This document shows, in pieces, positions 2,207 to 49,567 of a DNA stretch of 64,000 bases. Location of the stretch: assembly GCA_004293815.1 (NCBI GenBank), contig RDZD01000020.1:1-64000 (forward strand), given 5' to 3'. The notes below the pieces were generated by a model. It searched no databases. It was not told the DNA's origin and saw only the letters and a program-made list of their open reading frames with translations. Position 1 is the stretch's first letter, and every line of letters begins with the position of its first letter. This DNA comes from Cytophagales bacterium. GTDB lineage: Bacteria > Bacteroidota > Bacteroidia > Cytophagales > Bernardetiaceae. Made by a program: the position numbers and the translations under genes.

Positions 2207-4612
2207 CTAAAAAGCCAAACGAAGTGCTAGTAGATAATTACGGCCTGCCTGCGGAAAATAAAAATTTTCGTATGTGGTTTGGCCGCCACTGATGTAACCA
2301 AAAGTATACCCATTGGATTCGTATTGGTGCGACAAGACATTATTTACCAAAAAACTGATAGTCAAATTTTTAAAATACCGATTACTAGGTGTTAGGCTCA
2401 CCCTACAATCATTCACAAAAAAAGTGTCCAAGCTGCGGCTGTCACTAGAGGTGTTATCTAGATACTGCTTACTCACATACTTAGACAGCCACCCTAATTC
2501 TAGCCATGCGGTAGGTTGGCAGCTCAGTTGCCCGTTTAGTACTGCACTGGGCGAAAAACTAATGTCTGTTTGCCCGTGCGCAATTTGCTGTTGCCCTCCT
2601 TGGTCGTAGTCGTCTATAAATTCTAGGTAGTTTTGAATCTTATTTTGAGAAAATGCAGCATTCACGTCCAAAAGCCATATTTTTTGTATTCGCCAACGAG
2701 CCGAAAGCTCCACACCACGCCTAAAGCTTTCAGGCACATTTTCCCGAACATAAGCCCCCACATCATTGATTTTTCCAGTTATCACGAGTTGGTTTTGATA
2801 GTGCATATAGTACAGATTGGCAGCTAGTTGAAGTGTGCTCTTTCCCCATTGCCAGCCTAGTTCAGCGTCCCACATAGCCTCAGATTGTGGCCTGCTCTGC
2901 GGCGTACTTTGAGTAAATTCGTCGCGGTTGGGTTCTTTTTGTCCTCTAGAAAGCGAGAAGAAAGCTTGATGCTGCCCTTGTTGGTAGCTCAAGCCTATTT
3001 TAGGATTAAAAAAAGTCAGATTGACACTTTGCTGAACATTTTGAAGCTGTTCATTAAAGCCCCAAAAACTGTAGAAAATGTGCCTCACTTGCAAGTCTGC
3101 AAAAGCCGACAACCTCGTAGACAGAGCGTAATTGGCCTTAACAAAAGTATTGAAGTCATTTTTTTGTGCGTCATTGTCGTAATAAGGCTTGCGAGTATCT
3201 TCATAACTCAAAAACTTGGCCCAAACGATTTGTCCAAAGTGGCGACCACGATACTGGTTGTAGCCTCCCCCAAGCGAAAGCTGAAGAGCCGCTTTGCCCC
3301 CTTCAGGAATTTTGCTTTCATAGTCAGCGTTGAAAACAACCCCAAAAAACTGATTGTCAAGCCAACGCTGTCTCACCAACTCAGTACTATTGATGAGAGA
3401 GTCTCCCACACGAACAGGCTCTAGTCCATAGGCTTCCAAAGGGTCATTGCTGCGAAACTGCTCATAATAGCCCTCGCCAAGCGTGCCGTGGAGAGCTAAA
3501 CGCGTTTTGATTTGATTATGCACTTTTTGATTCCAAATAAGCTGATAATGTGTTTGTTGATAGTTATCTGTTTCGTTGTGGTAGTTAGCCACTGGGTTAT
3601 AGGTGCGTTGGCCTTCGCGCAGCAAGCTCTCTGGTACTCCATACCAAGCTTGAAATGTCACCTCTTTTCCTCCAAATACATTGGCCTGTACGCTGGTGTT
3701 TTTATGGTGATAATCTGCTGTTGCAAAATAAGATTTTAGGTTTGAAGAGGCCATATCTATAAATCCATCGCTCTGTATTTGCGAAAGTCTCATAGCTAGC
3801 TTGAGCTTATTTTGCAATAAACCTGAAGAGGCTAAAACATTGTTTTTTAATGTATTGAAAGATCCAACACTGGCATTATACTCAGCAGAAGGCAAGTCAG
3901 ACGGGGTTAAAGTCTCCATATTGATGGTTGCGCCAAAAGCACCCGCACCATTCACAGACGTGCCCACTCCTCGCTGAATTTGTACATTCTGAACAGAAGA
4001 AGCAAAATCGGGAGTATTTACCCAAAAGACCCCTTGTGATTCCGAGTCATTGAGAGGTATTCCGTTGATGGTTACGTTAGTGCGCGTGGCATCAGAGCCT
4101 CGTATGCGCAGAGATGTGTAGCCAATTCCACTGCCCGCGTCTGATGTGGCCACAGCCGAAGGTGTAAAATTGAGCAAAATAGGAATATCCTGTCCTAAGT
4201 TCATTTTTCGAATTTCTTTAGCATTAAGCTTGCTTCCCGACATGGGCGCGCGGAAACCCTGAACTAGAACCTCTGACAATGTTTTTAAGCTTTCATCAAG
4301 CAAAATCTCCAGCTTGATATCTTCATTCAATACTTTGACCTGTGTTTCGTAGGACTGATAGCCTACAAAGCTGATTTTGAGATGATAATCGCCATTTGGA
4401 AGGTTATCAAATGCAAACAGTCCTTTTTCATTGGTGGCTTTAAACTTTTCGCCGCTTGGAGTAGAAAGCTGCGCTACTGCTTGAAAAAGCACAAATCCGC
4501 TATTGCGATCTTTGACCTGACCTTGTATAACATGCTGGGCACACAACCAAGGTAGTGAAAGAAGCCAAAAAGCTAGCAACAGAAAACTGTGAGAAATAAA
4601 TCTTGAAATCAT
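2207..4612 (-). CDS. TonB-dependent outer membrane receptor, probable thiamine-compound uptake
   Basis: A TonB-dependent receptor of about 801 residues from the preferred ATG at 4612 (MISRFISH); an ATG at 4642 would add ten residues. In order it has a signal peptide ending near LCAQ, a carboxypeptidase-regulatory-like beta-sandwich (GQVKDRNSG...LPNGDYHLKISFVGY), a plug domain (LRIRGSDATRTNVTINGIPLNDSES...QIQRGVGTS) and a long 22-strand-type barrel ending in an aromatic-rich C-terminus (LLALRLAF). No SusD partner is adjacent. The TPP riboswitch just upstream is the main evidence for substrate: TPP-controlled TonB receptors are known from Bacteroidota and are thought to import thiamine or its precursors. 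Receptor class is certain; substrate is inferred. Confidence 0.9.
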   Translation of the reverse strand: MISRFISHSFLLLAFWLLSLPWLCAQHVIQGQVKDRNSGFVLFQAVAQLSTPSGEKFKATNEKGLFAFDNLPNGDYHLKISFVGYQSYETQVKVLNEDIKLEILLDESLKTLSEVLVQGFRAPMSGSKLNAKEIRKMNLGQDIPILLNFTPSAVATSDAGSGIGYTSLRIRGSDATRTNVTINGIPLNDSESQGVFWVNTPDFASSVQNVQIQRGVGTSVNGAGAFGATINMETLTPSDLPSAEYNASVGSFNTLKNNVLASSGLLQNKLKLAMRLSQIQSDGFIDMASSNLKSYFATADYHHKNTSVQANVFGGKEVTFQAWYGVPESLLREGQRTYNPVANYHNETDNYQQTHYQLIWNQKVHNQIKTRLALHGTLGEGYYEQFRSNDPLEAYGLEPVRVGDSLINSTELVRQRWLDNQFFGVVFNADYESKIPEGGKAALQLSLGGGYNQYRGRHFGQIVWAKFLSYEDTRKPYYDNDAQKNDFNTFVKANYALSTRLSAFADLQVRHIFYSFWGFNEQLQNVQQSVNLTFFNPKIGLSYQQGQHQAFFSLSRGQKEPNRDEFTQSTPQSRPQSEAMWDAELGWQWGKSTLQLAANLYYMHYQNQLVITGKINDVGAYVRENVPESFRRGVELSARWRIQKIWLLDVNAAFSQNKIQNYLEFIDDYDQGGQQQIAHGQTDISFSPSAVLNGQLSCQPTAWLELGWLSKYVSKQYLDNTSSDSRSLDTFFVNDCRVSLTPSNRYFKNLTISFLVNNVLSHQYESNGYTFGYISGGQTTYENFYFPQAGRNYLLALRLAF

Positions 4613-4726
4613 TTTTCCATGTTTTAAAAGATACAAAAACATGGGGTTTAAGGGCAGACAATTCTAAAAAGAACGCTAGCACAAAAGGATTAGACCACGT
4701 TAAAAGTCTGTCACTTTTGTGTTATC

Positions 4727-4805
4727 GCGAATCCCTACGCACGCTTTAACGTGTTCAGGTTCAGTGGGTTTGATCTCAGCCTGCTTGGTAAGGCACCCCA
4801 TTCGC
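4727..4805 (-). promoter_or_regulatory. TPP (THI-element) riboswitch
   Basis: Read on the minus strand, the segment holds GGGGTGCC, CTGAGA, ACCC, GAACCTGA and GTAGGGA in the order and spacing of the TPP aptamer. The closing P1 helix is GCGAAT (4800-4805) with ATTCGC (4727-4732). A short variable helix is formed by CACG and CGTG around 4740-4753. It lies about 115 nt upstream of the receptor start and should lower its expression when thiamine pyrophosphate is plentiful. Confidence 0.93.
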
Positions 4806-4817
4806 ATTTACCTGAGG

Positions 4818-35846: not shown

Positions 35847-35947
35847 TAGCTTATGAATTTTCTACCTTAAACTAAAATTTAACTCTCTGTTAATCAATTT
35901 TTAGCTATCAGTGGTGTAATTTGCAAGATATTAAAGCCAACAGTTTT

Positions 35948-38900
35948 ATGAAGCAGTTATACAGCCTTTTAGTAGTTTTTTTGAGCTTTACGGCCTCACT
36001 TTACGCACAACTAAACGATAGTTTCACAGACGGTAATTACACCGCCTCACCAACTTGGGTGGGTGGCAGCACTGTGGGTCCAGCTGAAGGTTTTACGGTT
36101 AATCCCAGCTTACAGCTCCAGACAAATCTAGCCAACATTGGTACAGGAACTCGCTTTGCGTATTTGACCACACCCACAGCCATCAACCTAAGCACCAACC
36201 ATTACGAATGGAGCTGCAATACTCAACTACTCTTTACTACACCAAGTCCGCCAAATTCCACCAACCATAGCCGAATTTATTTGACTTCAGATGCAAGCAA
36301 TTTGCTGGGCGCGCTCAACGGTTATTTTATCAAAGTGCAAGATAAAATTACTTTAAATCGCCAAGACGGCTTGGTGGAGACCGAACTTGCCCTTGTGGGC
36401 GGCACCAGCACACCACTTGCAAGCCCTGTTACAGCCAGTATACGTGTCATACGCACGATGTCTGGTCTTTGGCAGGTGTTTCTGGGCGGTGTTTTGCAAG
36501 GTGTGGCTACAGACCTAACCTACACCACATCTAGTTTTTTTGGAGTACAGTACCGCTATTCTGCCTCTACTCGCCGCAATGATTTTGTATTTGACAATGC
36601 ACTTATTCAGCCATACATTGATGTTGCACCACCTGTCCCAACGTCGGTACAAGGCGCGGCAACTAATCAAATTGCCGTTAATTTTAACGAGCCTATAAAT
36701 GAAATTTCAGCAGAAAACGCCTCCAACTATCTTGTAGTGGGTATTGGTGCACCTCTAATAGCTGAGCTTAATCCCTTAAACCCAACGCAGGTTATCCTCA
36801 CCTTTGCCACAACATTTGTACCCGCTACGGCCTACACTCTGAATGTGAGCAATGTCAAAGATTTGTTTGGCAACGATATGGTGGGTACAACCGCATTGCC
36901 CTTTGTGTTCAATGACCTGTTACCGCCTATGCTCAGTAGGTTAAAAGTCATTTCGGCTAATGCTTTAGATGTGTTTTTTAATGAAGACGTGCAGGTGCTT
37001 AGTGCTGAAACAGAAGCTAATTACAGCAAAAGTTTAGGGATAGCCAATCCAGCTATTGCGCTGCGCGATGCGGCCAACTTTAAACTTGTTCACTTGACCT
37101 TTCCTGACAACTTCCCTGCTAACACCAACCAAAATTTATCCATTATCAATGTGCGAGACTTGGCTTCCAATCCAATTTCGCCAGCTATCAGCGGCTTATT
37201 TCGTTATGACACAGACCGCCCTGATGTGTGTCCAAGTGGCTGTGTGATAGCCTTGTCGCCCAATCAAGTTCGGGTTATTTTTGATGAAGATGTGGATCTT
37301 ACCACTTCTCAAATTGTCAATAATTATGAAGTGTTGGGCTTAGGCTTTCCCACAAGTGCCGTGCGCGATGTGAGCAATCCCAAACAAGTACTGCTCACGT
37401 TTCCTTTTTCTTTTGTGGTAGAGCAAATGTATCAGCTCAAAATACAAAGCGTAACAGATTTGGTTGGCAATGAAATGACTACCAGAACACGGGATTTTAT
37501 GTATGATAATAATAATCCCACTGTGGTCAAGCTACGCGTACTTGATAACAACAACATAGAATTGACTTTTAGTGAATTTGTGCAAAATCCTTCTGCTACA
37601 CTGTTAACTAACTATTTGGTGAGTAGTGGTATAGGAAACCCAACAGCCGCTACATTATCAGCGTTTGATGCCCGTATCGTTACACTGACCTTTGCGGGCG
37701 GACTGGGCGATTTTGCAGCACTCACCCTCACCGTGTCTAACGTGAGAGACTTGCTCGGCAACGCCATGAGTCCGCCTCAGGTTCTCAATTTTGGTACTAG
37801 AAGCCCTAGTATTGGCAAAATATGGGTACTCTCTCGTCAAAAAATACGTGTACAGTTTTCTGAACCCATAGAAACTCTCACTGCCGAAACCGAAGCTAAT
37901 TATAATGTACCTTCTTTGGGTGTGCCTTCTTTGGCTACCAAAACCGCCCCTAATTTGGTAGAATTAGACTTTGCAGCCTCTATGGCTATAAGTACTCCAT
38001 ACACTTTGAGTGTTCTCAACGTTCAAGATTTGCTTGGCAATGCCATTACGACAGCTTCTACAGAAACTTTTTCCTATCAGGTACGCATCACACAAGTCAA
38101 AGTAGTTTCTGCCAACCTGCTGGACGTTTTCTTTAGCTCTAACGTGGTTTTGGCTGATGCCGAAGATGAACTCAAATACAGCGTTGCACCCACGCTCGGC
38201 AACCCAGCCTCTGCGGTGCGTGATGCCAGCAATTTTGCTTTAGTACACCTCTCTTTTGGCCCCAATTTCTTGCCTAGCGTCACCTACACGCTCACAGCAG
38301 GCTGGTGCGCATTGCTGAACGGACAAATAGCCCCAATCTCTACACATAGCTTTGTATACGACAACGTGCCACCTTCGGTAACGACTCTTGAGTTGATAGG
38401 TCCAAAATCGCTGCGCTTGACTTTTTCAGAAGAACTAGACGAAGTAACGGCGGAAGCCTTGAACCATTATGCTGTCAATTTTGGGATTGGCCTGCCCGTC
38501 TCAGTAGTATTGAGTTCAAACAAGAAAGTGGTGGTGCTAACCTATGCCTCAAACTTTGCCTTCGGAACAGTTTATACACTGACTGTTAAGAGTGTCAGGG
38601 ATTTGCTCCTCAACGAAATGGGCGTTCAAAATCTCACATTTTCGCGACCTGTGCAGCCAGCACCTGGCGAGTTGCTCATCACAGAGATTTTTGCGGACGA
38701 GTCGCCCAAAAAAGGCTTGCCCTTGGCTGAATTTATAGAAATTTATAATCCCACGACCACACCCAAAAACTTGCTTGGTGTTTTGCTGCAAGACGGTAGC
38801 TCGCAAACCACTCTCCCGAGCTACACTCTTGCACCTGGTGCTTATGTCACACTTTGCCCCTTATCGGCTGTGGATAGTTTTTCGGTGTTTGGGGCTTGCT

Positions 38901-41900
38901 TAGGGCTGCCTTCTTGGCTCTCTCTCACCAACTCAGGCGAGCCTATTCGCTTTTTAAGCAGCGATAGCGTTCTAATTACCTCTGTCACCTTTGATGATGA
39001 TTGGTACAAAGATGACGTTAAAAAGCTTGGTGGCTGGTCTTTGGAGCGCATTGATTTGTCTTCACCTTGCGCTGGTGGTGGCAATTGGTTAGCGTCTCGC
39101 GACAGTACAGGAGGTACTCCTTCTAAAATCAATTCTGTCAATGGCTTAACAGCTGATGCCATAGCTCCATTTATTCTAGCCTCAAAAACCTTAGTTCCCG
39201 ATCGCTTGGAGTTGAGCCTAAGCGAAGAGTCTGACAGTTTGAGCATGGTTACACTAGCCAATTATAGCATTTTGGACGGCTCTTTATCTGTGGCCTCAAT
39301 TGCTTATAATAGTCCCACAAAGCTCACCTTGCGCTTTGCGACAGCACTAGACCCTAACAAGCTCTACACTCTCGTCATGCGCAACGTGCGCGACTGTATA
39401 GGCAATACACAACCTGATACCATAAATTTTGGTGTAGGAGAAGTTCCCAAAGCTTTTGATTTGATTATCACCGAAATCATGGCGGATGAGTCCCCACGAG
39501 TCGGTTTGCCTTTGGCCGAGTATATAGAAATTCGCAACAGAACCTCAAAGCTTCTCAATTTGGGGACTGTAAGACTTTCAGATGCTACCAGTTCCGTTTT
39601 GCTGCCTTCAAGGGTATTGGAGGGCGGTGCTTATCTGTTGCTCACTGGCACAAGTAAAGTAGATAGCTTTGGTATCAGTAATGCTGTGGGCGTAGTGGGC
39701 TTTCCGAGCTTGAGCAACACAGGGGAACCGCTCACACTTCGTGACACTTCGGGCAAACAAATCTTTGCTATCAACTTTGATGATGGCTGGTATGGTGATG
39801 CAGTGAAAAAGAACGGCGGCTGGTCTCTGGAAATGATAGACCAAAACAACCCTTGTGGAGAAGCCGATAACTGGCTGGCTTCTAAAGATGTGAAAGGCGG
39901 TACGCCAGGAAAAATCAATTCCGTATCAGCTTCTAAGCCAGATTTGACCAAACCAGCCATAGCCTCGCTAGAAATTATCACGCTTTCACAATTGGAAGTT
40001 ACGTTTTCTGAAACGCTGGACAGCTTAAGTATGGTGACCGCGGCTAACTATGCAGTGGCGGGACTCAGTATTACTTCAGTGGTATATGTTTCGCCCAAGT
40101 CTGCGAGAATCAACTTTTCTGCGCCTATTAAAGAAACTCTGCTTTACAAATTAACCGTTACAGGGGCCAAAGATTGCGCTGGGAATGCTTCAGCAAGCAG
40201 CAAAAATTTTGGTAAAGGCCGTATCCCTTTGGCTAATGAGCTGGTTATTACGGAAATCATGGCAGACGAAACTCCAAAAGTTGGTTTGCCTTTGGCGGAG
40301 TATTTAGAGATATACAACCCAACACCTGATTTGATTTCACTTCAAGATGTTGTCATTCAAGATGCTACAAGTGAATACAAACTGCCAAATTCTGCCATTG
40401 AAGGTAAAAAATATTTGCTTTTGTGCAGCACCAGCAAGATAGACAGTTTCGCAACGGTCAATGCTCTGGCTATGAGCAGTTTTCCGAGTCTAACTAATAG
40501 TGGCGAAGAGCTGTCTCTTATCAACTCTCTTGGCAAACGAATTTTCAGCGTTAATTACTCAGACGATTGGTATAAAGATCCTGTCAAAGCTTTGGGAGGT
40601 TGGTCTCTAGAAATGATAGACCCTAGTAACTTTTGTGGCGAAGCTGACAACTGGCTGGCATCTAAAAACCCTCTGGGTGGTACGCCTGCTGCTGAAAATT
40701 CTGTATTAGCTTCTAATCCAGACACGGTAGCTCCTGCAATTTCCAGCATTACGCTACTTGCCGACACTCTGCTTAGGATAAATTTTTCAGAAAAAATGGA
40801 TAGTCTAGATGTGCTCAATGCAGCACGTTATACACTTAACAAAGGACTTACTATCAAAGTTTTGAGATGGCTAGATGCTACAAGCATTACACTGAGTTTT
40901 TCACCTAAAATTGCCACCAGCACCATTTATGAGCTTAGTGCCAAGGGGCTAAGAGATTGTAGCGGTAACGCTTCAGCAGCACAAACCTTTAGTTTTGGTC
41001 GCGGAGTAGCACCCACTGGCAATGAGCTGCTGATTACCGAAATTTTGGCAGATCCCAGCCCGAGAATTGGTCTTCCAGAACGAGAGTTCTTGGAAATTCA
41101 TAATAATAGCGACAAGCTTTTGGAAATTGGCGGCGTAACGCTTTCTGACGCAGGCGGCGTGTGTACCCTACCTCCTGCGGTGCTCTTACCGCGCCAATAC
41201 GCCGTGATTTGTGGCACATCTTCGGTGAGCAATTTTGCGGCTTATGGTACTGTCATTGGCGTAACGGGCTTTCCAAGCCTTGACAATGAAGGTGAAAAAC
41301 TGACTCTTAGAGCGGCAAACAACAACTTATTGTTTAGCGTTGACTATGATTACAACTGGTATAGTGACCCAGCCAAAAAAGCAGGCGGCTGGACACTTGA
41401 ACTCAAAGACCTTAATAGCCCGTGCATAGAAGCTGGCAACTGGCTAGCGAGCGAGTCTCCTTCAGGCGGTACTCCAGCCGCTGCCAACTCCCTCAGTGGT
41501 GAAGTGCGTGATGTGCTTCCGCCGCAAATAGAACAAGTTCTGGCCTTGTCAGATACTCTCATTGAAGTGCGCTTTTCTGAGAAGATGGATAGTGTCAGCT
41601 TGATGAATAGCCTTAACTATCTGCTTTCAGACGCTTTGGTTTTGAAGAAAATCATTTATCTATCTGAAAAAAATATCCGCTTTGTCATAAGTCCCAAGCT
41701 TTTGATTAATAAAGCCTATAAACTTACCGTAAAAGCTGTCAGGGACTGTTCAGGCAACGCCATAGAGGAAATTGCTTGGCCATTTGGTTTGGGTGTTGTG
41801 CCTGACTTCAATGAGTTAATCATTACAGAAATCATGTGCGACCCCTCACCTGTTATCAAACTTCCTGAAACAGAATATCTAGAAATATTCAATCCGACGA

Positions 41901-43468
41901 ACAAAATTTTAAGTTTGGGAGGTGTCCTGCTCTCCGATGGCTCTGAAACGGTTGTCTTACCATTTCAAAATATTCAACCTCAAAGCTATTGGGTCATTTG
42001 CCCCTCTTCTTCAGTGAACGCATTGTCTCTTTTTGGCAGTAATATTCTTGGCATTTCGAACTGGGTGAGCCTGGATAACTTCGGCGAAAACTTACGCCTG
42101 CGCACGCCTGATGGCCGTTTGATACATGACGTAACCTATTCGGACGATTGGTACAATTCTGCCGACAAAGAAGAAGGGGGCTGGTCTTTGGAGATGATTG
42201 ACCCGAACAACCCTTGTGCAGGTAGCAGCAACTGGACGGCTTCTGAACACCCCAAAGGCGGGACACCCGCAAAAGAAAATTCGGTACTGGGTAGTTTTCC
42301 AGATAATAGACCACCCAAGTTGCTTAAAGCTGATGCCTTAGATCCCTTGACGGTGCGTTTAAAGTTTGATGAAAAGCTGGACAGTGCACAACTGGTGCGC
42401 TTTGCAGAAATCAGCTTAGACAAAGGGTTGATTGTAAAAAATTTAGAGTTAGAGCCTGCTGATTTTTCGCTTGTCAAACTTAGGCTGGTTTCAGACATGA
42501 CCCCAAGAACTGTTTATACCGCCAAAGTGGGACAAATCACTGATTGTGTGGGTAATTTACTCAATGCAGAAAACAACCAAGCTACTTTTGTTCTACCTGA
42601 GCAAGGCGACTCCACGGATTTAGTCATTAATGAAATTCTCTTTGATCCTCCTGTAGGCGGTACAGACTTTGTTGAAATTTACAACCGTTCTGAGAAGTTT
42701 GTCAATTTGAGAGGCTGGCGTATAACAGGCTTCCGTGATGGAGCAATTTATACCCCAAAAATCATTTCGGAAGAAGATCTAATTCTGGCTCCTCAGTCTT
42801 ATCTGGCAGTTTCACGCAGTAACGAGCTGCTTTTGGGACAATATCCAAACGGCAAACGCGAAAACTTTTGGGCTATCAATAGCCTACCTTCTTTTGCAGA
42901 TTCAGAAGGTACAGTCATTTTGCAGAGCAACACTGGTCAGATTGTAGACAGATTTGATTATAACAAAGATTTTCATTTAGACTTGATCCGCGACCGAGAA
43001 GGTGTGAGTTTGGAACGCATCAACTTCAATAATCCCACTAACGATCGCAACAATTGGCATTCTGCTGCTGCCACTATTGGCTATGGTACGCCAGGCTATT
43101 TGAATTCTCAGTATGTGGGCGAAAACGGAGCAAGTCAAAATAAAGATTGCTTTGGTTTAAGTCTAGATATCTTTACACCCGACAACGACGGCATAGACGA
43201 TTTTGTACAAATCAACTACACTTGTGCAGATTTGGGCACTATTGCAGACATTAACATTTACGATATGAAAGGCAGGCTCATGCGTCAGTTAGTTCAGAAC
43301 AGGCTAGTGGCTACGAGTGGTGGCTCGCTAACGTGGGACGGCCTCACCGACAGCGGACAGAAAGTGCCTGTAGGCTATTATCTGATAACGATACAGACGT
43401 ATAACCTGAGCGGTAAAACCTCTGTAGTTCGCAAAAAGATAGCGGTTAGCGGTACTTGGAACCGCTAA
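35948..43468 (+). CDS. Giant secreted Ig-like / lamin-tail repeat protein
   Basis: From ATG 35948 (MKQLYSLLVVFLSFTASLYAQ) the product has 2,506 residues. After the signal peptide comes a lectin-like N-terminal domain (to about 225). Seven tandem SbsA-type Ig modules of about 97 residues follow (about 225-900; each has a PP..., VxFxE, NY, LTF, YTLxVxxVxDLxGN pattern). Then come six lamin-tail domains starting near residues 906, 1173, 1431, 1694, 1956 and 2224 (LLITEIxADxSPxxGLPxxEYLEIYN), the first five each followed by one more Ig module. The end from about 2,400 (IFTPDNDGIDDFVQINYTC...YDMKGRLMR...VPVGYYLITI) is a FlgD/CHU_C-like sorting domain, suggesting type IX export to the cell surface. 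An adhesin or sheath role is likely, but unproven. Confidence 0.88.
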   Translation: MKQLYSLLVVFLSFTASLYAQLNDSFTDGNYTASPTWVGGSTVGPAEGFTVNPSLQLQTNLANIGTGTRFAYLTTPTAINLSTNHYEWSCNTQLLFTTPSPPNSTNHSRIYLTSDASNLLGALNGYFIKVQDKITLNRQDGLVETELALVGGTSTPLASPVTASIRVIRTMSGLWQVFLGGVLQGVATDLTYTTSSFFGVQYRYSASTRRNDFVFDNALIQPYIDVAPPVPTSVQGAATNQIAVNFNEPINEISAENASNYLVVGIGAPLIAELNPLNPTQVILTFATTFVPATAYTLNVSNVKDLFGNDMVGTTALPFVFNDLLPPMLSRLKVISANALDVFFNEDVQVLSAETEANYSKSLGIANPAIALRDAANFKLVHLTFPDNFPANTNQNLSIINVRDLASNPISPAISGLFRYDTDRPDVCPSGCVIALSPNQVRVIFDEDVDLTTSQIVNNYEVLGLGFPTSAVRDVSNPKQVLLTFPFSFVVEQMYQLKIQSVTDLVGNEMTTRTRDFMYDNNNPTVVKLRVLDNNNIELTFSEFVQNPSATLLTNYLVSSGIGNPTAATLSAFDARIVTLTFAGGLGDFAALTLTVSNVRDLLGNAMSPPQVLNFGTRSPSIGKIWVLSRQKIRVQFSEPIETLTAETEANYNVPSLGVPSLATKTAPNLVELDFAASMAISTPYTLSVLNVQDLLGNAITTASTETFSYQVRITQVKVVSANLLDVFFSSNVVLADAEDELKYSVAPTLGNPASAVRDASNFALVHLSFGPNFLPSVTYTLTAGWCALLNGQIAPISTHSFVYDNVPPSVTTLELIGPKSLRLTFSEELDEVTAEALNHYAVNFGIGLPVSVVLSSNKKVVVLTYASNFAFGTVYTLTVKSVRDLLLNEMGVQNLTFSRPVQPAPGELLITEIFADESPKKGLPLAEFIEIYNPTTTPKNLLGVLLQDGSSQTTLPSYTLAPGAYVTLCPLSAVDSFSVFGACLGLPSWLSLTNSGEPIRFLSSDSVLITSVTFDDDWYKDDVKKLGGWSLERIDLSSPCAGGGNWLASRDSTGGTPSKINSVNGLTADAIAPFILASKTLVPDRLELSLSEESDSLSMVTLANYSILDGSLSVASIAYNSPTKLTLRFATALDPNKLYTLVMRNVRDCIGNTQPDTINFGVGEVPKAFDLIITEIMADESPRVGLPLAEYIEIRNRTSKLLNLGTVRLSDATSSVLLPSRVLEGGAYLLLTGTSKVDSFGISNAVGVVGFPSLSNTGEPLTLRDTSGKQIFAINFDDGWYGDAVKKNGGWSLEMIDQNNPCGEADNWLASKDVKGGTPGKINSVSASKPDLTKPAIASLEIITLSQLEVTFSETLDSLSMVTAANYAVAGLSITSVVYVSPKSARINFSAPIKETLLYKLTVTGAKDCAGNASASSKNFGKGRIPLANELVITEIMADETPKVGLPLAEYLEIYNPTPDLISLQDVVIQDATSEYKLPNSAIEGKKYLLLCSTSKIDSFATVNALAMSSFPSLTNSGEELSLINSLGKRIFSVNYSDDWYKDPVKALGGWSLEMIDPSNFCGEADNWLASKNPLGGTPAAENSVLASNPDTVAPAISSITLLADTLLRINFSEKMDSLDVLNAARYTLNKGLTIKVLRWLDATSITLSFSPKIATSTIYELSAKGLRDCSGNASAAQTFSFGRGVAPTGNELLITEILADPSPRIGLPEREFLEIHNNSDKLLEIGGVTLSDAGGVCTLPPAVLLPRQYAVICGTSSVSNFAAYGTVIGVTGFPSLDNEGEKLTLRAANNNLLFSVDYDYNWYSDPAKKAGGWTLELKDLNSPCIEAGNWLASESPSGGTPAAANSLSGEVRDVLPPQIEQVLALSDTLIEVRFSEKMDSVSLMNSLNYLLSDALVLKKIIYLSEKNIRFVISPKLLINKAYKLTVKAVRDCSGNAIEEIAWPFGLGVVPDFNELIITEIMCDPSPVIKLPETEYLEIFNPTNKILSLGGVLLSDGSETVVLPFQNIQPQSYWVICPSSSVNALSLFGSNILGISNWVSLDNFGENLRLRTPDGRLIHDVTYSDDWYNSADKEEGGWSLEMIDPNNPCAGSSNWTASEHPKGGTPAKENSVLGSFPDNRPPKLLKADALDPLTVRLKFDEKLDSAQLVRFAEISLDKGLIVKNLELEPADFSLVKLRLVSDMTPRTVYTAKVGQITDCVGNLLNAENNQATFVLPEQGDSTDLVINEILFDPPVGGTDFVEIYNRSEKFVNLRGWRITGFRDGAIYTPKIISEEDLILAPQSYLAVSRSNELLLGQYPNGKRENFWAINSLPSFADSEGTVILQSNTGQIVDRFDYNKDFHLDLIRDREGVSLERINFNNPTNDRNNWHSAAATIGYGTPGYLNSQYVGENGASQNKDCFGLSLDIFTPDNDGIDDFVQINYTCADLGTIADINIYDMKGRLMRQLVQNRLVATSGGSLTWDGLTDSGQKVPVGYYLITIQTYNLSGKTSVVRKKIAVSGTWNR
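36622..38640 (+). repeat. Seven ~290-bp SbsA-Ig coding repeats
   Basis: Module starts lie near 36622, 36916, 37207, 37506, 37802, 38087 and 38359. Each encodes a hydrophobic strand, VxFxE/D, a (T/S)AExxxNY segment and a closing VxDLxGN. They form an uninterrupted stalk-like array before the first lamin-tail domain. Confidence 0.8.
38664..42618 (+). repeat. Five ~790-bp lamin-tail + Ig coding repeats
   Basis: Starts of the ITEI(M/L/F) motif lie near 38664, 39466, 40240, 41027, 41814 and 42619, so the period is 774-805 bp. Each unit also repeats GGWSLExID, a Cys-containing NPC segment, NWLAS and GGTPxxxNS near its middle. Divergence at DNA level is moderate; amino acid motifs are kept. Confidence 0.85.
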
Positions 43469-45301: not shown

Positions 45302-46357
45302 TTATGGAAACAAAAAGCTATTAGGACCTATGCCAGTAGATACTTCCTTGAGTTTTGTGCCGTCTTTGCGGTATACCAATACGCGATTGTTGGCAGGGTT
45401 GGCAAAATTGGCTGCACCCAACAAAATATCGTCTTGAGCACTTACCCCAAGTCCATAAAAATCACCACTCACTAACTTTCTGGGTGCAGTCTCGCCAATT
45501 TTGAGACAATAAAGACCGTCTGAGAATAACCAGTAAATCGTTTCTTTCGCTTTATCAATGGCCAAACGTCCACGGATATTGTTACTGCCAGCGTCTAGAG
45601 CAACGTTGGTTTCTATAGTTCCGCTTGTTGGTTCTATTTGAAGCAAAGCACCTTTGGGGCTATTAAAAGACGCATCAAAACTAAAGCAGATAATCCATAG
45701 TTTGTTGCTTTTGTCCAATACCATTTGGTAAGGGCTGTGTGGCGCGGTGCTGATGGTGCCAGTTTTGACATCGTTAGCTGCATCATAAACAAAGATACTG
45801 GTTTCAAAGCTATTGCCCACAAATACTTTATTGGCCAAAGCCTGTATAAATTCCGTACCAGCTCCACATTCTATCTGCTTGACTATGCTGTTTGTTTTCA
45901 AATCCAAAACCATCAATTTAGGCTGAATAGCACCCGTAAAATCGCTCCATGCGCTCAGATAGGCTTTATTTTCGCTCACTTTAGCAATGTAGCGCGGGTT
46001 TGGAATAGGCGTTTTAAAGCTTGTCACACTCTTAAAATCAGAACTCTTGACCACTTCTACGGTAGCAGAATTGTTGAGTACCAAATAAGTCAAATCTCCA
46101 TTTCGGAGCGCAGATTGCAAGACATCTCCTGTGGGCCGCGCATTGGCTTTGAAAAAGATATCGCTAGCCACGGTGTCATAATTGCTGCTCAAAGCGTTTA
46201 AAGAGGCCGTATTTTTGCCAAAAGCACCTTCGTTAAGCACCAAAATATTATTCTGGTAGCCTACAAGGTCAGAATCGTTTTCTTTGTTATTACAAGAAAA
46301 TACTAGGAGAGAAATGAGGGCTAATAAAGCCATCGGTTTTACTGATAAAATACGCAT
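45302..46357 (-). CDS. BtuG-like (DUF5074/YncE-type) beta-propeller lipoprotein
   Basis: A 351-residue lipoprotein with lipid Cys22 (LLVFSCNNKENDSD); acidic residues after the Cys agree with cell-surface export. The rest is a seven-bladed-propeller-like repeat beginning LVLNEGAFGKNTASLNAL, with blades such as NPRYIAKVSENKAYLSAWSD and SPYQMVLDKSNKLWIICFSFD. This is the pattern of BtuG, the surface protein of gut Bacteroides that captures cobalamin and passes it to BtuB. The B12 riboswitch and terminator upstream strongly support a cobalamin role. No btuB gene is in the window. A paralogue lies at 48488. The function is inferred from family and riboswitch together. Confidence 0.85.
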   Translation of the reverse strand: MRILSVKPMALLALISLLVFSCNNKENDSDLVGYQNNILVLNEGAFGKNTASLNALSSNYDTVASDIFFKANARPTGDVLQSALRNGDLTYLVLNNSATVEVVKSSDFKSVTSFKTPIPNPRYIAKVSENKAYLSAWSDFTGAIQPKLMVLDLKTNSIVKQIECGAGTEFIQALANKVFVGNSFETSIFVYDAANDVKTGTISTAPHSPYQMVLDKSNKLWIICFSFDASFNSPKGALLQIEPTSGTIETNVALDAGSNNIRGRLAIDKAKETIYWLFSDGLYCLKIGETAPRKLVSGDFYGLGVSAQDDILLGAANFANPANNRVLVYRKDGTKLKEVSTGIGPNSFLFP

Positions 46358-46502
46358 TGTCTGATTGGGTTAAAAATTCCTCATAAAACATCAGCACACC
46401 TTGGACTCGCGTCTGAAAGCGCACATACACATGATATGTACACACACAGTCAAACCCGCCTCGTAGAGCAGATTTTTTTAAGAAATGGTTTAAAAAAGGT
46501 TT

Positions 46503-46547
46503 AAAAAAACATTCAGCGGATTTCTGTTTGCTCGACAGAGATGCGCT
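46503..46547 (-). terminator. Intrinsic terminator below the B12 riboswitch
   Basis: On the minus strand a 13-position stem (46535-46547 with 46515-46527; 11 pairs, two mismatches) and 7-nt loop is followed after a short gap by seven U residues (46503-46509). It lies 14 nt downstream of the aptamer end and 146 nt before the coding start, so it is the likely expression platform. Confidence 0.75.
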
Positions 46548-46560
46548 TTTATTGTTCCCA

Positions 46561-46726
46561 AGGCAGGTCTCCTGACTTACCGCCCACTCAAAACGGCCTT
46601 CCCGCAAAGCTATGCAGTGGCAGAGGGTGTTTTGTGGTTTTCGCGGCTTACAGTTGCGAGCACAGTGCTGGTTTTACACCAGCTTCCCTATTAAGTATAT
46701 ACAAACAGACGTTTATCATACACCTT
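46561..46726 (-). promoter_or_regulatory. Cobalamin (B12) riboswitch
   Basis: On the minus strand the conserved blocks appear in order: GGGAAGCTGGTGTAAAACCAGC, CGCAACTGTAAGC, the B12 box TGCCACTGC, GGGAAGGCC and GTAAGTCAGGAGACCTGCCT. The layout is that of a full cobalamin aptamer. With B12 bound it should favour the terminator at 46503-46547 and lower expression of the BtuG-like gene. The 5' limit is approximate. AATCTTTG at 46734-46741 is a possible -7 box for its promoter. Confidence 0.95.
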
Positions 46727-46964
46727 AGTGGCGCAAAGATTGAATATTTCAAGTAAAAGTCCAAGTGAGAACACAAAAATAAAAGTTACTCTCTCTGTGT
46801 TATAGCAATTGACAAGATTTTCAACCTCTACCAACATCAAAACAAACTTTGACTATACCCAGCAAGTAGCTTTTGCACTAGGTTTTCTCAAGGATTTACT
46901 TTTTAGCGTAAAAGAAATTAACTTTGCTCAAATTTTAGAGATATTTCATGTTCACAAAAGCTTT

Positions 46965-48470
46965 GTGTTAAAAAAACTACTTTCAGATACGGCACTTTAT
47001 GGACTGAGCAGCGTTCTGGGGCGTTTGCTCAATTATTTGTTGGTGCCACTCCATACGGGTGTGTTGGCCACATCTAGCTATGGTGTGGTGTCTAAGTTTT
47101 ATGCCTATGCTGCTTTTTTTAATGTGCTCTATACTTTTGGTATGGAAACAGCCTTTTTTCGGTTTTCGGCAGACAAAATGCAAGACAAACAGGAAGTTTT
47201 CAACGTCTCTTTTACGGTCATTTTGGTAATAAGCCTTTTGAGTTCGGGCTTGTTGTATGTGTTGGCTGTGCCCGTAGCGGGTTGGATAGGAGACGCTTCA
47301 CAAGCGCAATTTGTAAGATGGTTTGCAGGTATTTTTTTTATAGATGCCATTGTCATCGTTCCTTTTGCGCGCTTGCGTATGGAAAACCGCGCCAAAAAAT
47401 TTGCTACCGTGCGGCTCATCAATATCGTCATGAATGTGATTCTAAACTACTTGGTGTTGTACTTTTTTCATCAGGCCGTAACAGGCGAAGGGTTTGAGTC
47501 TATCAGTGTGTTTGCAGCGCGTTTTTACTCCCCTGCCGATGCCATGTCTTATGTGTTTTTGATCAATCTCATAGCCAATGCTTTTGTGTTGCCTTTACTC
47601 ATTCCAGAACTAAAAAATTATGTTCCAAAGTTCAGATTTGAGCTTTTAAAAAAGATGTTGCGCTATGGATATCCCATTGTGCTCATGGGTTTGTTTTTTT
47701 GTATCAATGAGGTGGGCAACCGTAATTTTCTAGAATGGTGGCTGCCTGAAGGTTATTACGCCGATGCCAATTCTTTGGACGCTGTGGGTATATTTTCAGC
47801 TTGCTACAAACTCTCCATCTTTATTTCTTTGGCTGTTCAGGCTTTTAAATATGCTGCTGAACCTTTCTTTTTTGGTAAGGCTGCTGATAAAAATTCGCCC
47901 AAAGTCTTTGCTGTGGTCATGCGGTATTTTGTGATAGCCTGTACGCTTATGTTTTTAGGTGTAAGTCTCAACCTAGACACTTTACAGTATTTTTTGAGAC
48001 AAGAGAGCTACCGAGCGGCTATGGACTTAGTGCCCATCTTGCTCATGGCTAACGTCTTTTTAGGCATCTACTATAACTTAGCTGTGTGCTTTAAACTCAC
48101 CGACAAAACTATTTACGGGGCTTATCTGGGTGGCTTAGGAGCTATCATTACGCTTTTGGGTAATTATAGTCTTATTCCTTTGTTAGGTTATTGGGGCTGT
48201 GCGTGGAGCACTCTGGCTTGCTATGCTTTTATGTGTGTGGCCTGTTATTGGTGGGGGGAAAAGTATTTTCCTGTTCCTTATTTTCTCAAATCGGCATTGA
48301 GCGTCATGTTTTTGGCGGCTGTGGTGGTTTGGGCTACAACATGGATAGAGATAGCAGATGTTTATATGAAATTTGGAGTTATGAATGGTTTGTTTCTAAC
48401 ATTTTCGGCTATCATAGTGTTCTACGAACGCAAGCAGTTTACACGCATACAAGCCAGTATGCGTACATAA
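46965..48470 (+). CDS. Polysaccharide flippase (Wzx/MATE-like) membrane protein
   Basis: I place the start at GTG 46965, giving VLKKLLSDTALYGLSSVLGR (501 residues), because related Bacteroidota flippases begin with just this segment; an upstream TTG at 46809 would add 52 residues of poor quality. About 12-14 membrane helices follow, with the Polysacc_synt pattern (NYLLVPLHTGVL, SYGVVSKFYAYAAFFNVLYTFGMETAFFRF). It probably moves lipid-linked sugars across the inner membrane. It reads away from the B12 riboswitch unit and is followed after 17 nt by the second BtuG-like gene. Confidence 0.85.
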   Translation: MLKKLLSDTALYGLSSVLGRLLNYLLVPLHTGVLATSSYGVVSKFYAYAAFFNVLYTFGMETAFFRFSADKMQDKQEVFNVSFTVILVISLLSSGLLYVLAVPVAGWIGDASQAQFVRWFAGIFFIDAIVIVPFARLRMENRAKKFATVRLINIVMNVILNYLVLYFFHQAVTGEGFESISVFAARFYSPADAMSYVFLINLIANAFVLPLLIPELKNYVPKFRFELLKKMLRYGYPIVLMGLFFCINEVGNRNFLEWWLPEGYYADANSLDAVGIFSACYKLSIFISLAVQAFKYAAEPFFFGKAADKNSPKVFAVVMRYFVIACTLMFLGVSLNLDTLQYFLRQESYRAAMDLVPILLMANVFLGIYYNLAVCFKLTDKTIYGAYLGGLGAIITLLGNYSLIPLLGYWGCAWSTLACYAFMCVACYWWGEKYFPVPYFLKSALSVMFLAAVVVWATTWIEIADVYMKFGVMNGLFLTFSAIIVFYERKQFTRIQASMRT

Positions 48471-48487: not shown

Positions 48488-49567
48488 ATGACAACACTCA
48501 AAAACCTTTTTCTTGTTACATTTTTTTGTGTATTGGGTAGCTTTGGAGTCGGTTGCAACAAAACGTCCGTAAGCCCACACGATACCTCGCCAAACAAAAA
48601 CCTACCTGCTAATTTCTCGAAAGGTGCTTTTATTCTTAACGAGGGAAATTTTGGCTGGGGCGTAGCTACTGTAGACTTTTTAAGTTTTGAAAAAGACACC
48701 ATTTATGCTGACATATTTGCAGTGGCCAACAATAATGCGCCTTTGGGTAATGTGGTGCAATCTATGTTACCTGCTCCCGATTGCTTTTTACTGTCTGTGA
48801 ATAATTCTCAAAAGGTAGAAATTGTAAATAACAGCAATTTTAAGCGTCAAAAGACTATTAACGGCCTCAGATCGCCTCGCTATATGGCACTTTCCAGCAA
48901 TAGCGACAAGGTATTTATCACCGATTTGTATGACACAGCCCTTTCGGTGGCCGAACTTAAAAGCGGACAAGTGCTTTCTCGGATAAATTTGGGCTTTAGT
49001 AGTGAGAAAATTGCGCGTTTTAAAGACAAAATACTGGTTTGTGCAGGAAGCTTAGACTATAAAACAGGCCAGTTTTTAGTCATTGATGAGCACTCTCAAA
49101 AAATTATTCAGCGTATAAACTTAGAAAGTATGCCGCTTGATATGACTCTGAATGGCAACACAGGCCAAGTATGGCTAGCTCTGGCTGCCTCCGATACAAA
49201 GAATGGCAGTATTTGCTGCTTAGAGTACAATACCAATTATACACTCGCGCAGCAAAGCACTTTACCAAATTTCAAACCGCGAAAAATCTGCTACGACGAG
49301 CAAGAAAAAAAGCTTTACGTATTGGCTCAAAACACAGTCTATACAACCAATACAAGCCATGCTAAACTTGAGCTTTTCCTTTCTTTTCCTTCAGCCCAAA
49401 TCATTTATAACATGAGCGTAAACACCCAAAGGAAAGAGCTTTATCTAACAGAAGCACTAGATTATGTACAAAAAGGAAAACTCCTTGTTTATGACTTGGC
49501 TTCCAAGAAGCTCAAAAAAACCTACCGAGTGGGTGTGATTCCTTCAGAAATACTTTTCACAGATTAA
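48488..49567 (+). CDS. Second BtuG-like (DUF5074) propeller lipoprotein
   Basis: This 359-residue lipoprotein has lipid Cys23 (GSFGVGCNKTSVSPHD). It aligns by eye over its full length with the riboswitch-controlled protein at 45302: AFILNEGNFGWGVATVDFLSFEKDTIYADIFAVANNNAPLGNVVQS versus LVLNEGAFGKNTASLNAL...DIFFKANARPTGDVLQS, and both have a SPRYMA/NPRYIA blade. The residues after the lipid Cys are less acidic, so surface export is less certain. It has no riboswitch of its own and lies 17 nt after the flippase and 13 nt before nth, suggesting an operon. A second cobalamin-binding or other surface role is possible. Confidence 0.82.
   Translation: MTTLKNLFLVTFFCVLGSFGVGCNKTSVSPHDTSPNKNLPANFSKGAFILNEGNFGWGVATVDFLSFEKDTIYADIFAVANNNAPLGNVVQSMLPAPDCFLLSVNNSQKVEIVNNSNFKRQKTINGLRSPRYMALSSNSDKVFITDLYDTALSVAELKSGQVLSRINLGFSSEKIARFKDKILVCAGSLDYKTGQFLVIDEHSQKIIQRINLESMPLDMTLNGNTGQVWLALAASDTKNGSICCLEYNTNYTLAQQSTLPNFKPRKICYDEQEKKLYVLAQNTVYTTNTSHAKLELFLSFPSAQIIYNMSVNTQRKELYLTEALDYVQKGKLLVYDLASKKLKKTYRVGVIPSEILFTD

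Follow-up and report, generated by a model that had tools for sequence, protein, structure and literature searches.

In all 11 Bernardetiaceae genomes surveyed, a cobalamin riboswitch stands ahead of a lone btuG gene, a real break, shared by the whole family, with the customary pairing of btuB and btuG. For the locus described here we consider the following reading probable: a kissing-loop riboswitch represses btuG, the BtuG protein serves a BtuB encoded in trans, and the original uptake operon has been taken apart. At the sequence level it draws on the aptamer with its kissing loop, on a gene order in which btuB is unlinked and a second btuG is present, and on conservation across the family; from these we infer cobalamin binding by BtuG, repression by cobalamin, the BtuB partnership and the operon break-up. 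No description of the lone riboswitch-btuG arrangement was found in the literature searched, including the available portions of PMC13398666 and PMC9723704.

The window (the whole stretch of DNA analysed) comprised 64,000 nt, positions 1-64,000 of contig RDZD01000020.1, from assembly GCA_004293815.1 of a Cytophagales bacterium (Bernardetiaceae). This assembly (labelled G000) has a size of 3.0 Mb and is 84.7% complete. The features of the locus were as follows:

45302-46357 (- strand): BtuG-type beta-propeller lipoprotein, 351 aa (DUF5074, PDB BtuG matches, predicted fold)
46441-46463 (- strand): possible anti-aptamer strand, complementary to the aptamer 3' core (duplex -23.4 kcal/mol)
46503-46509 (- strand): run of seven U, beginning 13 nt after the P13 stem ends (sequence)
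46523-46539 (- strand): P13 hairpin UCUGU-CGAGCAA-ACAGA, with L13 CGAGCA at 46529-46534 (loop complementarity to L5)
46545-46742 (- strand): cobalamin riboswitch aptamer (RF00174, 103.5 bits, E 8.1e-25)
46657-46662 (- strand): L5 loop UGCUCG, partner of L13 (Rfam alignment position; complementary to 46529-46534)
46774-46781 (- strand): candidate Bacteroidota -7 box TATTTTTG, 31 nt upstream of the aptamer (pattern match to TAnnTTTG)
46809-48470 (+ strand): polysaccharide flippase-like gene, divergent, between the two BtuG genes, ATG at about 46948 (Pfam Polysacc_synt, Polysacc_synt_3)
48488-49567 (+ strand): second BtuG-type paralog, 359 aa, with no cobalamin riboswitch (DUF5074, 59.1 bits; PDB BtuG, E 2.1e-20; tree)

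The aptamer score lies well above the RF00174 gathering score of 31.5 bits, and the aptamer is followed, after a gap of 187 nt, by btuG on the same strand. It was the only cobalamin riboswitch found in the assembly (84.7% complete), and no btuB adjoins btuG. The aptamer, the BtuG-like lipoprotein gene and the standing of that gene as the sole riboswitch target in view, as given in a preliminary description of this DNA, were thus upheld. Upstream of the aptamer, TATTTTTG fits the pattern TAnnTTTG, which we take to be the Bacteroidota -7 box motif; the match is weak taken alone, because 115 such matches occur within the window.

The product of the riboswitch-linked gene matched DUF5074 and the solved Bacteroides BtuG chains (E 2.2e-21 to 8okv, BT2095), and the profile of the family BtuG proteins reached E 1.2e-41 to 8bmx_D. 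A model built with 11 family members (pLDDT 87.3) was predicted to form a seven-bladed propeller, for which the top fold matches were all BtuG (Foldseek, VIA; best match Z 37.3, rmsd 2.1 A over 305 residues). The protein carries a lipobox, LVFS-C followed by NNKENDSD. A signal-like Cys was present in 11/11 family BtuG proteins and acidic residues mostly came next, with GSSSNNPEP in G001 (judged by eye). Identity to solved BtuG was merely 19-25% over the model. In BtuG2, Trp194, Trp272 and Tyr316 narrow the upper-ligand cavity (PMC10404256, available text); an equivalent was present for Tyr316 and absent for Trp194 and Trp272 (profile alignment to PDB, read by eye). The low identity and the loss of two of the three cavity residues would suit a propeller that has taken on another ligand and does not bind cobalamin. 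This is highly improbable in our judgement: the gene lies under a cobalamin riboswitch in 11/11 family genomes, and the BtuG folds matched at Z 34-37, whereas other propellers reached at most Z 31.

Riboswitches were surveyed in 59 genomes, 52 of which had a match; 82 of the 83 matches were analysed (G026:C649, below the cut-off, was left out), and some of the downstream gene blocks were cut by contig ends. The 11 Bernardetiaceae genomes held 12 riboswitches, 11 ahead of a lone btuG and one (in G007) ahead of metE. At the 70 loci from other families of the same order, the riboswitch preceded a TonB receptor with btuG (30 loci), a TonB receptor without btuG (15), metE (7), other genes (16) or btuG only (2, one doubtful). 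The doubtful locus is G050:C60, where Pfam gives merely a Por secretion tail. At the other (L100, G027:C9:295774-295975), an FGE-sulfatase-like gene and a tandem pair of BtuG genes come after the riboswitch, in a block that contained no TonB receptor. When genome contigs were searched, a single-protein query returned nothing and an alignment query returned 8 loci.

Three further observations concern the riboswitches of the family. MetE was found in G007 alone among the family genomes, and its gene there lies under a second, strong cobalamin riboswitch (L055, G007:C1:823004-823184). The btu riboswitches of genus g2 are long and have low scores (31.7-62.8 bits). The Rfam match at L056 (G007:C1:4902373-4902529; 31.7 bits) stops too soon; the 3' core, AGGAGACCUGCC, is located over 100 nt downstream of where the match ends.

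For the detection of btuB, a profile was made from an alignment of 28 BtuB proteins encoded in riboswitch operons. It gave one strong match (>500 bits) in 10/11 family genomes, with the next best in the family below 75 bits; no btuB was found with it in the remaining genome, G008 (93% complete). The btuB of the present genome (G000:C49:16504-18390, 519.9 bits) lies on another contig than btuG. Its product has the Pfam plug and barrel, and among PDB entries it best matched BtuB2, which partners BtuG2 in B. thetaiotaomicron (E 3.1e-50). A Pfam PF00593 search of the same genome returned 10 TonB receptors, and the true btuB was not among them, so absences from Pfam genome searches are not proof; NCBIfam gave no verdict on the TonB receptors. 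The proposal of a BtuG-like gene without btuB was therefore accurate locally, with none beside btuG, and failed at the level of the genome. The separate cobalamin capture unit that had been suggested keeps its lone arrangement in 11/11 genomes. That it acts independently of btuB is doubtful: the genome does encode a genuine BtuB in trans, for which the lipoprotein may still be a lid.

No recognisable riboswitch accompanies these btuB genes: 49 kb around the 10 family btuB loci gave 0 cobalamin-family matches at E up to 1, and no riboswitch core words were found within 700 nt upstream of the ten genes. The btuB contexts vary by genus, and trp genes (named by eye) lie upstream in 5/6 of the g2 loci. 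All of this speaks against a cobalamin-responsive element that Rfam misses, through which btuB would be regulated as well and the two genes would not be uncoupled. Such an element is still a serious possibility, a little short of an even chance. The family btuB may be regulated too, because operon 4 of B. thetaiotaomicron, described in the available text of PMC12751083 as lacking an identifiable riboswitch, is regulated by cobalamin like the others. Co-regulation would also make sense for proteins that form a stable complex, as BtuB and BtuG do (PMC10404256, available text). In having an uptake gene without an identifiable riboswitch besides riboswitch-controlled ones, operon 4 resembles the Bernardetiaceae; unlike them, B. 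thetaiotaomicron has three other btuB and btuG operons, all with riboswitches, according to the same portion of PMC12751083.

The second BtuG paralog, which was not part of the preliminary description, is located in the same window, 2.1 kb from the riboswitch-linked btuG. It is possibly co-transcribed with the flippase gene, because it starts 18 nt past the flippase ORF. Both BtuG types were present in 11/11 family genomes, and neither adjoins btuB. In the tree, the riboswitch-linked BtuG proteins of the family formed one clade (support 96/94), and the second BtuG proteins fell within a clade (100/99) that holds BtuG proteins encoded downstream of btuB in other families. A group confined to the second BtuG proteins, and containing all of them, had weak support (61/75). 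From gene order and the tree, an ancestral riboswitch-btuB-btuG operon was most likely split across three loci, and one btuG retained the riboswitch. The ancestral operon possibly had two btuG genes, as does a riboswitch operon of G036.

The presence of two BtuG types in every family genome, in different parts of the tree and apart from btuB, would also fit a division of labour, in which the second BtuG is the lid of BtuB and the riboswitch-linked one, not being a lid, serves separately as a lipoprotein for capture or storage. Since the BtuG proteins of B. thetaiotaomicron are lids of BtuB (PMC10404256, available text), we regard this division as unlikely and prefer a riboswitch-linked BtuG that serves the unlinked BtuB.

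Downstream of the aptamer, the preliminary description had placed an intrinsic terminator with seven U, and hence a complete attenuation unit. The loop of the hairpin in question, CGAGCA (46529-46534), is exactly complementary to the L5 loop of the aptamer, UGCUCG (46662-46657). An L5-L13 kissing loop with P13 is known in cobalamin riboswitches (PMC9600662, available text), and the present locus is like the RF00174 riboswitches described there in its aptamer, its L5-L13 kissing loop and its P13 just 3' of the aptamer. The same source gives a predicted intrinsic terminator for 37/38 of the riboswitches that worked in B. subtilis reporters; none is recognisable here.

The L5-L13 pairing was counted across the survey under a 4-base rule (complementarity to the L5 tetramer), at the 71/82 loci that could be parsed (in the other 11/82, L5 or the core was unparseable). 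At 60/71 loci, a hairpin loop complemented the locus's own L5 tetramer; 200 runs of shuffled leaders gave a mean of 7.1 and a maximum of 13. The commonest L5 tetramer was CCCG, for which a hairpin at a near-identical site carries CGGG in its loop (47/57 loci). Where the tetramer was not CCCG, L13 was compensated in 13/14 loci (CUCG 3/3, CGCG 7/7, UCCG 2/2, CUUC 1/1, GUUG 0/1), although the complementary hairpin of the CUUC locus sits at an unusual place and is perhaps due to chance. The CUCG tetramer was present in two families; the covariation events are not independent, because the loci are related. P13 began 13-24 nt past the aptamer core in 56/60 cases. The 4-base rule was adopted after a stricter rule (at least 5 complementary bases) had given 15/56 loci against a shuffled mean of 16.0, i.e. 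no excess. As an out-of-sample check, 20 more loci were retrieved once this rule stood; the 14 of them that could be parsed all fitted (14/14). By its loop complementarity and conserved place, the hairpin at 46523-46539 is P13 of the riboswitch and not a terminator.

A terminator formed by P13 and the seven U was rejected: a terminator scan of 46300-47000 returned 0 sites, the U run begins 13 nt past the stem, and L13 covaries with L5. The terminator, and with it that part of the attenuation unit, consequently has to be withdrawn. A broader form, in which cobalamin binding to the aptamer stops transcription at the seven U through some intrinsic terminator, could call on the U run itself (46503-46509) and on an extended hairpin (46547-46515, -9.5 kcal/mol) that stops 5 nt short of it; premature termination has also been proposed generally for B. 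thetaiotaomicron cobalamin riboswitches (PMC12751083, available text). We judge it quite unlikely. The empty scan counts against it, as does the identity of the hairpin as a P13 of conserved place and covarying loop. Moreover, 10% of shuffles of the extended-hairpin stretch fold equally well, none of the ten other btuG leaders in the family has the U run directly 3' of P13, and a simple terminator was found in only 4/70 leaders, this locus not among them. The pattern of riboswitch, hairpin and U run can thus pass a P13 kissing-loop hairpin off as a terminator.

The possible anti-aptamer strand was also compared with shuffled sequences. In G000, 0.7% of 300 shuffles gave a duplex with the aptamer core as low in energy; the duplex was not significant in G001 (the sister genome), G003 or G004. 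It was kept out of the main claim because it is significant in G000 only.

In the preferred reading, high intracellular cobalamin would bind the aptamer, the L5-L13 kissing loop would form and btuG expression would fall. Control could be exerted on transcription, RNA stability or translation. RNA-level control without a simple terminator is plausible, because riboswitch-dependent expression in B. thetaiotaomicron drops about 70-fold by qRT-PCR (PMC6143338, available text) and premature termination was proposed there (PMC12751083). At the cell surface, the BtuG lipoprotein would catch cobalamin and pass it to the TonB-dependent BtuB encoded elsewhere. The Bernardetiaceae operon would thus be dismantled, with the riboswitch and one btuG at one locus, and btuB and the second btuG elsewhere without a recognisable riboswitch.

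The closest known system is BtuG2/BtuB2 of B. thetaiotaomicron (BT1954/BT1953; PMC6143338, PMC10404256, available text of both). Both systems have a surface lipoprotein with a seven-bladed propeller (predicted here), a cobalamin riboswitch ahead of btuG, and btuB somewhere in the genome. They differ in linkage: in B. thetaiotaomicron, btuG adjoins btuB in one riboswitch locus, and the btuB of the present genome lies apart, with no recognisable riboswitch of its own. Such adjacency is customary for btuG genes but is not something the protein's biochemistry demands. In gut strains, btuG was reported in 106/109 btuB operons (PMC6143338, available text).

More tentatively, and in our view less likely than not, the amount of the BtuG lid might follow cobalamin supply while BtuB stays constant, so that the lid-to-transporter ratio would be regulated and the second BtuG would act as a constant basal lid. 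A family with its B12 sensor on the lid gene alone offers a natural experiment on the lid's own contribution, and bears on whether capture or transport limits B12 uptake.

B12 import is probably needed in the family, because the corrin-synthesis marker CbiC was found in 0/11 and MetE in 1/11 of its genomes. MetH and methylmalonyl-CoA mutase are present in G000. At least one strong FecCD permease was found in 10/11 family genomes, G000 (an incomplete assembly) being the one in which it was not found. On these gene contents, the Bernardetiaceae probably import B12.

Two other features were recorded in the window. A secreted protein of 2515 aa with many repeats is encoded at 35921-43468 (+ strand). 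A TPP riboswitch (4715-4810, - strand) lies directly upstream of the gene for an 811-aa TonB-dependent receptor (2207-4642, - strand), which is probably a thiamin-related outer-membrane receptor.
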